From contig PIYB01000006.1 in the NCBI GenBank assembly GCA_003601835.1, forward strand, positions 1-38,087: a DNA stretch of 38,087 bases, read 5' to 3'. The stretch comes from Candidatus Bathyarchaeota archaeon. Its GTDB lineage: Archaea > Thermoproteota > Bathyarchaeia > Bathyarchaeales > DTEX01. Below, piece by piece: positions 36,824 through 38,087 of this stretch. Below the pieces are notes generated by a model, which made no database searches, was not told the origin of the DNA, and worked only from the letters and a program-made list of their open reading frames with translations. Each line of letters starts with the position of its first letter. Positions within the stretch are counted from its first letter, which is position 1. The translations under genes and the position numbers were made by a program.

Positions 36824-37780
36824 TTAGATCTTCCCTTGTTCAGCCAGGATTTTGAATTCTTCAAAGCTGAGTTTTTTGCCGCGTTTCAGTTTGTCTAAAG
36901 CCTCTTCCTCCGTCTTCTTTCGGAGAATGGCTTGTTGTCTGGCTTTTTCTTCTTCCTCTTTTTTCTGCATTGCGGTGTGCAGAGTTTTGATTTGTTTTTG
37001 AACTTCGACGTATTTGAGATGTGTTGCTTTTGCTTTTTCTTTGTGTTTCACGTATTCTCCGTGCATCTTGTCGGCTTCCGATTTGAGTTCCTTAGTCTTT
37101 TCGAGTTTTGTAATCATTTTTTCGTGAAAACGTTGGCTTTCTTGAGCTAGTTCTTGTATTCTTCTGTGTTTTTCTAGAATCTCCGTTTTGAGTTCAGCCG
37201 TCTCCTGTTTGAGGGATTCGATTTCCTTTTTTATCCGTTCGATTTCTCGGTAGGCTTTTAGCTGCGTCTCCAAGAACTTGGCGCGTTCAACGAGTTTTCT
37301 TTCCTCGTCAAGGGTAAGCGTTTCAGTTTGGATTTTCCATTCAACCTTCTGTAAGTCGTTTTCTAGGAAACGGAAGGTTCTCTCAGATTTTTCCGCCCGA
37401 AGTTCTCTTATTTTCTGTTTTAGCTGCTTCATTCTTTCGAGTTTTTCACGCCGCGTTTTCTGCTGTTCATCCCTTAAGGCTTTCAGGTATTGGATCTCAG
37501 CGTTCAACTCGTCTCGTTTGGCCTTGAGGCTTTTGGCTTCAAGCATGTTTCTCCGGATTTCTTCGTGGAACCGGTCTCGTTTTTCAGCCCATTTACGGGC
37601 TTCACTGTTCAAGTTTTCTCTTTCCGTTCTTAAGGCGTCTCTTTCCTTATACAGCCGTTCAAGTGTTTGCTCTGAGGCAGTGATCTCGGTTCCCTCGCTT
37701 AGAACTTCGAATGCTTTGGAAACATAAAAACGTTTCAGACGTTTCCTGCTTTGCCGACGAAGTGACCAGTAACCTTGCAA
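36824..37780 (-). CDS. COG1340-type archaeal coiled-coil protein
   Basis: This is a long charged coiled coil of the COG1340 family. From LERLYKERDALRTERENLN onward the pattern of KxRDEL and EKRDxF repeats continues for nearly 270 residues; the C-terminus (LDKLKRGKKLSFEEFKILAE) is the conserved closing helix. Its role is unknown; some such proteins are linked to ribosome- or chromosome-associated structures. The frame stays open far upstream, but that part overlaps the tRNA gene. Between the tRNA end (37824) and the coil the only start codon is TTG 37780, so the start is uncertain. Confidence 0.75.
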   Translation of the reverse strand: MQGYWSLRRQSRKRLKRFYVSKAFEVLSEGTEITASEQTLERLYKERDALRTERENLNSEARKWAEKRDRFHEEIRRNMLEAKSLKAKRDELNAEIQYLKALRDEQQKTRREKLERMKQLKQKIRELRAEKSERTFRFLENDLQKVEWKIQTETLTLDEERKLVERAKFLETQLKAYREIERIKKEIESLKQETAELKTEILEKHRRIQELAQESQRFHEKMITKLEKTKELKSEADKMHGEYVKHKEKAKATHLKYVEVQKQIKTLHTAMQKKEEEEKARQQAILRKKTEEEALDKLKRGKKLSFEEFKILAEQGKI

Positions 37781-37823
37781 AACAGCGGCGGAAAAAGAAG
37801 AATCGGAGCAGCTCAGGGATTTT

Positions 37824-38035
37824 TGGTCGGGCGGGCAGGAGTCTCCTAGGAAGCTTGTTAGCTGTCCTATTTTGAATTCGCCGAGCCGCGGGCTTACCTC
37901 GGCTCTCCTGCGACACTCCGGTTTCTGTACGCTCGGCAGGCTGAGCAGCATCCGCCGACAGGCAGACGCCTACAGCGTCTCCACCGGCCTGTTTCAAGCC
38001 GGTTCGGAAGCTCTGCCAAGCTGAGCTACCGCCCG
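37824..38035 (-). tRNA. tRNA-Tyr(GUA) with four introns
   Basis: Five exons assemble into a 77-base tRNA-Tyr. Exon 1 (38035-38005) gives the acceptor CGGGCGG, T8, the D-arm GCTC/GAGC and TCCG of the anticodon stem. Intron 1 is 38004-37977 (28 bases), exon 2 is 37976-37970 (GCTGTAG, with GTA at 34-36). Intron 2 is 37969-37923 (47 bases, position 37/38), exon 3 is 37922-37907 (A38, CCGGA, GTGTC, GCAGG). Intron 3 is 37906-37877 (30 bases, 53/54), exon 4 is 37876-37871 (TTCAAA). Intron 4 is 37870-37841 (30 bases, 59/60), exon 5 is 37840-37824 (T60, CCTGC, CCGCCCG, A73, CCA). All stems pair perfectly, and A14, G15-C48, G18G19, T33, T54T55C56 and A58 are right. C1-G72 with A73 is the archaeal Tyr identity set. 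Confidence 0.88.
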
Positions 38036-38060: not shown

Positions 38061-38070
38061 AGATATATGT
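38061..38070 (-). promoter_or_regulatory. TATA box for tRNA-Tyr
   Basis: The minus strand reads ACATATATCT. Twenty-five bases on, transcription would begin near 38039, four bases before the first base of the tRNA, which supports the 5' end chosen. Confidence 0.6.
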
Positions 38071-38087
38071 TTTTCGTCTCTGTTTCA

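Follow-up and report, generated by a model that had tools for sequence, protein, structure and literature searches.

The question raised by this locus is whether a tRNA-Tyr gene divided among five exons can be functional, and what part its introns may play before they are removed. The window (the whole stretch of DNA that was analysed, 38,087 nt) belongs to the 1.25 Mb assembly of a Bathyarchaeota MAG that is 85% complete and is assigned to this group by its similarity to named public records. On its minus strand, at 38035-37824, lies a 212-nt tRNA-Tyr(GUA) gene made up of 77 nt of mature tRNA and four introns of 28, 47, 30 and 30 nt at positions 30/31, 37/38, 53/54 and 59/60, which separate exons of 31, 7, 16, 6 and 17 nt. 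The gene reads CGGGCGGTAGCTCAGCTTGGCAGAGCTTCCG, 28 nt, GCTGTAG, 47 nt, ACCGGAGTGTCGCAGG, 30 nt, TTCAAA, 30 nt, TCCTGCCCGCCCGACCA, and its parts are as follows.

38063..38076, minus strand: putative BRE/TATA box with the sequence CGAAAAACATATAT; lies about 32 nt before the mature 5' end and recurs upstream in relatives
38005..38035, minus strand: exon 1 (nt 1-30), CGGGCGGTAGCTCAGCTTGGCAGAGCTTCCG; boundary the same in 53 homologs
37977..38004, minus strand: intron 1, 28 nt, at 30/31; missing in L025, L029, L090, L092 and L094
37970..37976, minus strand: exon 2, 7 nt, GCTGTAG (nt 31-37, anticodon GTA)
37923..37969, minus strand: intron 2, 47 nt, at the canonical 37/38; present in 53/53 order homologs
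37907..37922, minus strand: exon 3, 16 nt, ACCGGAGTGTCGCAGG
37877..37906, minus strand: intron 3, 30 nt, at 53/54; missing in L023, L028, L033, L035 and others
37871..37876, minus strand: exon 4, a 6-nt micro-exon, TTCAAA (T-loop 54-59)
37841..37870, minus strand: intron 4, 30 nt, at 59/60; missing in L022, L034, L035 and others
37824..37840, minus strand: exon 5, 17 nt, TCCTGCCCGCCCGACCA, CCA encoded

The preliminary description had proposed a tRNA-Tyr gene with introns of these lengths and a TATA box at the right distance; coordinates, strand, lengths and junctions were all confirmed, and ARAGORN called the spliced 77-mer as tRNA-Tyr(gta), with C1-G72 and the CCA encoded. ARAGORN found no tRNA in the raw window and made no call on the unspliced 212-mer, and Rfam gave 0 matches above the gathering score in the raw window. 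A coiled-coil protein ORF (36824-37951, minus strand) opens at an ATG within the tRNA gene, and its true start must be downstream of the tRNA.

One explanation for such a structure is that this is a decaying pseudogene, or that at least one of the 'introns' is an assembly or sequence error. The gene does end only 52 nt from the contig end, and its being missed by generic tRNA tools would fit this. However, the exons are intact and conserved in dozens of species, the intron helices covary and similar architectures occur in independent public records, so that we consider decay or error very improbable. A search of the genome for another tRNA-Tyr, which had been suggested as a check, found none among 28 RF00005 hits or the BLAST hits in this 85%-complete genome. 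No Tyr anticodon is present among the 28 RF00005 hits, and those that ARAGORN left unnamed have no C1 start, as far as their 5' ends are readable. The 15% of the genome that the assembly lacks could still, formally, contain an intact second copy. We note two observations on other tRNA genes: L072 (G000:C10:12206-12487) is a probable tRNA-Arg(TCT) with introns near 7/8 and in the anticodon region, and L070 and L074, on separate contigs, have differing 5' parts but the same 3' sequence over about 70 nt, a stretch that takes in the intron.

When the gene was compared with 60 relatives, most genomes gave one strong match, and 53 distinct precursors of the same order were parsed. All 53 splice to exactly 77 nt with identical junctions. 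Introns 1 and 2 alone are present in 24 of them, all four in 18, introns 1, 2 and 4 in four, intron 2 alone in three, and introns 1, 2 and 3 or introns 2, 3 and 4 in two each. Introns 1, 3 and 4 are therefore each cleanly absent from some homologs at the exact predicted junction, while intron 2 is never absent. Chance is excluded as the source of the spliced product, because homologs without intron 1, 3 or 4 at the same junction all give 77 nt. The four-intron state is common to at least 18 distinct genes of the order and, since it is also found in the public record CP070759.1, named a chromosome (L051), it is not an artefact of a single MAG assembly.

Two further features of these homologs were observed. 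An identical 23-nt intron 4 (ATGAAGGTTTCACTTCATGAAAG) occupies 59/60 in L020, L032, L043, L044, L048, L054 and L117, which are from different families; it was found once each in three of 61 genomes searched and nowhere else. Copying of intron 4 from other tRNAs was considered and rejected, as the 23-nt intron occurs once per genome and always in tRNA-Tyr (three genomes). Does its sharing mean that the 3' half of the gene was recently transferred, or subject to gene conversion? In addition, a copy of the acceptor 5' strand is found in the 5' leaders of L024 and L051 (TGGTCGGGCAACGGGCGG) and of L148-L150 and L152 (GTCCCGCGGANCCCGCGG); these leaders complement the tRNA 3' end, in some cases including CCA, and may contribute to processing of the 5' or the 3' end.

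The junctions were tested for the bulge-helix-bulge (BHB) motif, and each exon-intron junction carries one with the predicted cut point after the second bulge base. In introns 1 (CTTC-CG/A ... GGAG-AC/G, the slash marking the cut; inner helix ACCGGC/GCCGGT) and 2 (CTGT-AG/G ... ACAG-AA/A) the central helices are 4 bp and fully paired. The preliminary description had taken the BHB of intron 1 as strict; the 4-bp helix stands, but one of its pairs is U.G. Its pairing of CTGT with ACAG in intron 2 is borne out by a CTGT central helix that is paired in every distinct homolog sequence. Introns 3 (CGCA x GGCG) and 4 (TTCA x GGAG) have, in the window, an A.G beside the 5' bulge, which leaves three central pairs and a relaxed BHB; A-U replaces A.G to give a strict 4-bp BHB in relatives, for intron 3 in 7/21 and for intron 4 in 13/18. 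The inner helices covary at 6/6 pairs in intron 1, 5/6 in intron 3 and 5/5 in intron 4, with two-sided changes at 16 of these 17 pairs. They are paired in 92.6%, 98.4% and 93.3% of cases respectively, against shuffle maxima of 83.7%, 91.3% and 87.8%, although these maxima take no account of relatedness and are not probabilities. The sequence data establish a gene of five exons and four introns with BHB-type junctions and intron helices that covary, and with introns 1, 3 and 4 that are present or absent in relatives precisely at the junction.

Intron 2, the one intron that is always retained, reads hairpin-GCT-CAGC-CTGCCGAGC-GT-ACA-GAA and can be resolved into an element that involves the D-loop.

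38013..38021, minus strand: D-loop segment GCTTGGCAG (nt 15-22), 5' strand of a predicted lower stem; 9/9 pairs with intron 2
37947..37970, minus strand: 10-bp upper hairpin predicted by RNAfold (G37 to CT), above unpaired U35-A36
37931..37943, minus strand: CAGC (pairs with GCUG 31-34) and CTGCCGAGC (complements D-loop GCTTGGCAG)
37926..37928, minus strand: ACA trinucleotide; CAGC starts 15 nt before it

The general form, in the anticodon-loop intron, is YAGC, a 9-bp D-loop complement, NN and ACA. It was followed in a set of 91 genes. The order supplied 53 of them, nearly all through BLAST, and the rest came from the class and phylum through a motif search. The full 9 bp of D-loop:intron pairing is present in 83/91 genes, the other eight being one pair short or having a one-base bulge, and there are compensatory changes at position 17 (U:A/C:G, 43/39) and position 20 (66/13). 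The distance between the YAGY start and ACA is 15 nt in 86 genes, 14 nt in four and 16 nt in one, and this spacing is held even where a bulge shifts the lower stem; variation in YAGY is restricted to pairing bases. ACA is part of the splice-site ACAG in 56/91 genes. In the remaining 35 the 3' splice site is further downstream, and ACA is kept in 34, with AAA in the other. For part of the motif-found set the search pattern itself contained ACA, and those sequences carry no independent weight for the conservation of ACA, which rests on the order genes and one further gene set. The motif occurs once per genome across the Bathyarchaeota, in 81/201 genomes, and a reversed-pattern control gave 0. 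RNAfold gave the D-loop pairing P>0.5 in 50 of the 53 full precursors and the central helix of the intron 2 BHB P>0.5 in none; when the guide pairs were imposed, the unpaired left side was most often U35-A36 and the hairpin was 9-10 bp. The duplex has a mean energy of -15 kcal/mol. The element, with its D-loop pairing, is new here. In other genomes of the phylum (L129, L151 and L154), tRNA-Tyr has introns within the D-arm, and these separate the stretch pairing with intron 2 from the 5' end.

Removal of the introns would be carried out by an (alpha-beta)2 tRNA splicing endonuclease cutting each BHB after the second bulge base, with the exons then ligated; this is inferred. A heterotetrameric endonuclease arrangement is known to handle relaxed BHBs (PMC6379350). 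EndA alpha (Tyr/His/Lys triad) and beta (His lost) paralogs occur together in 9/10 relatives examined, which corresponds to this arrangement. In the present assembly only beta was found and not the catalytic EndA alpha, most simply because the assembly is incomplete. We note that a splicing endonuclease paralog without the catalytic His lies beside a HisRS-like gene (G000:C20:365-619). Splicing is probably stepwise, an order inferred from geometry only. Two simultaneous neighbouring BHBs require 1+4+2 = 7 exon nt; exon 2 has 7 nt and exon 4 has 6 nt, so that the intron 3 BHB, in its 3' bulge, and the intron 4 BHB, in its central helix, would both have to use T54 at the same time. In addition, the outer helix of intron 2 (TCCGG/CCGGA) forms only after intron 1 has been removed. 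It is because exon 4 is one base short, and because the outer helix of intron 2 needs intron 1 out, that a stepwise course is proposed. We propose that the locus is a functional single-copy tRNA-Tyr(GUA) gene, spliced stepwise, whose precursor folds by D-loop:intron pairing before splicing; even though EndA alpha is absent here and present in relatives, and introns 3 and 4 are relaxed BHBs in the window, we hold this joint explanation with high confidence, in the absence of RNA data.

What the intron 2 element does is less certain, and the covarying D-loop:intron pairing, itself a comparative inference, is a firmer result than any guide role. Before cleavage, CAGC-CTGCCGAGC-GT-ACA would pair with nt 31-34 and with D-loop nt 15-22, a fold that would exclude the BHB and the cloverleaf and expose U35-A36 unpaired. 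The exposed U35-A36 would most likely serve a step on the precursor, either formation of pseudouridine 35 or a folding checkpoint, to be followed by refolding and splicing. One explanation, which refines the stepwise account and does not exclude it, is that intron 2 is a cis H/ACA-like guide for pseudouridine 35 before splicing; we rate this tentative reading a little below an even chance. The D-loop:intron duplex would then act as the lower stem and the 10-bp hairpin as the upper stem, CAGC would pair with GCUG to form the 3' guide duplex, the UN target would be U35-A36, and Cbf5 would bind the ACA box. In its favour, the guide start lies 14-16 nt from ACA in 91/91 genes, ACA persists in 34/35 genes in which it is off the splice site, YAGY changes only to pairing bases, the motif is found once per genome (81/201 against none in the reversed control) and genes for Cbf5 and Nop10 are present in the genome. 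The predicted target, U35, is moreover a known pseudouridine site for which a trans H/ACA guide has been validated in Sulfolobus solfataricus (PMC4652768).

In archaeal H/ACA RNAs the lower stem measures 7-9 bp, ACA lies 14-16 nt from the pocket and there are 10 stacked layers (PMC4652768). The 9-bp D-loop:intron stem falls within the first range; the ACA spacing fits when counted from the guide start and is about 3 nt longer from the hairpin closing pair; Cbf5 and Nop10 are both encoded. The 3' guide, by norm 5-6 nt adjoining the upper stem, is only 4 nt (YAGC) and usually 2-5 unpaired nt away. Against a guide role, about 3 unpaired nt too many separate the guide from the upper stem, no 5' guide strand pairs 3' of the target, which runs straight into the upper stem, and an L7Ae K-turn or K-loop would not fit into the hairpin loops, most of which are only 3-5 nt. 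Since it has neither a K-turn or K-loop nor a 5' guide, the element is not classed as a member of the H/ACA family. TruD/aPus7, the usual enzyme at the U35 site, is also encoded in 57/61 relatives and, as it is present in most carriers, another enzyme could modify U35. The idea that the element replaces a missing aPus7 was rejected on the same count, with TruD also in 18/20 wider genomes; two f32 genomes without TruD carry the element, and so do many genomes with it. A box C/D guide was likewise rejected, as no CUGA was seen by eye beside the D-loop complement.

Another possibility is that the D-loop:intron pairing is only a folding lock that holds the precursor off the tRNA fold, without Cbf5, until other steps have been completed. 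The pairing is nested and strong, as its mean energy indicates, and the intron 2 BHB is excluded in the RNAfold ensembles; the lock would leave unexplained both the fixed ACA spacing and the retention of ACA away from the splice site, and we judge it clearly short of an even chance, without being remote. It could also be that ACA is kept only for ACAG x CUGU in the BHB, that aPus7 makes pseudouridine 35 and that the D-loop match has no role. TruD is common, the 56 genes with ACA at the splice site would fit, and UGUAG resembles the Pus7 consensus, UNUAR. This is unlikely, however, given the genes with a displaced splice site (34/35) that keep ACA at unchanged spacing and the compensatory changes in D-loop and intron. 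We retain the guide reading as a possible one, not quite an even prospect, in which intron 2 acts like an H/ACA guide and pseudouridylation is inferred with no RNA data. If it is correct, modification would be coupled to splicing, and there would be a reason for retention of intron 2 in 53/53 genes while neighbouring introns come and go. More broadly, the canonical tRNA-Tyr intron may, in Bathyarchaeota and in certain further lineages of the phylum, be a cis, K-turn-less H/ACA machine that borrows a D-loop strand for its lower stem, directs modification of U35 and must refold to the BHB before splicing; we offer this as possible rather than probable.

The published archaeal maximum, in reviews and with tRNAscan-SE 2.0, is up to three introns per tRNA (PMC4033280, PMC8450103, PMC6379350, PMC4390854), as in Pyrobaculum calidifontis tRNA-Glu(UUC) and P. 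islandicum tRNA-Pro(UGG) (PMC4390854). The preliminary description had raised four as a possible record; it is above the published three but is not the natural limit. L148, L149 and L150, from other Bathyarchaeota orders of the same class, have five introns, at 9/10, 30/31, 37/38, 53/54 and 59/60, giving at least three five-intron genes. The fifth, at 9/10, reads CCCGCGGTA/A...CCGT AA/GCTC, and spliced L149 is a clean 77-nt tRNA-Tyr by ARAGORN. A search of the openly accessible literature for tRNAs with four or five introns gave no relevant paper; older subscription papers lie outside it. For Atabeyarchaeia and Freyarchaeia (Asgard), 228 tRNA introns are reported, and the main text, the part of the source available to us, gives no per-gene maximum, only 'multiple' (PMC11291895); on that partial view a four-intron gene in those genomes is not excluded. 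Four introns here and five in relatives exceed the published three and explain why standard tools miss such genes, which in turn makes genomes appear to lack a tRNA. With intron numbers that range from one to five while the junctions stay fixed, these genes also provide ready substrates for the study of stepwise splicing.

As with the multi-intron tRNAs of Thermoproteales, BHB introns here lie at canonical and non-canonical sites, and 30/31, 53/54 and 59/60 are among known intron positions (PMC4090602). In contrast to Thermoproteales, in which three is the maximum, the present gene has four and its relatives five, the host is in the Bathyarchaeota and there is a 6-nt T-loop micro-exon. The Atabeyarchaeia and Freyarchaeia are alike in that, in the part of the source seen, most tRNA genes have introns, more than half have several and many are non-canonical (PMC11291895). 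The intron of pre-tRNA-Trp in some archaea, a box C/D guide, offers a parallel for a tRNA intron that guides modification of its own anticodon region (PMC6313347); there the reaction is C/D 2'-O-methylation, whereas the tRNA-Tyr intron is H/ACA-like and, on inspection by eye, shows no C/D boxes. The trans H/ACA guide Sso1 of Sulfolobus solfataricus shares the predicted target U35 and the 14-16 nt from guide to ACA (PMC4652768, PMC7991803), and its '10/5/9' fold has a 9-bp lower stem, as in the tRNA-Tyr element. Unlike Sso1, the tRNA-Tyr element has no K-turn and no 5' guide, would act in cis and would take one strand of its lower stem from its own D-loop.
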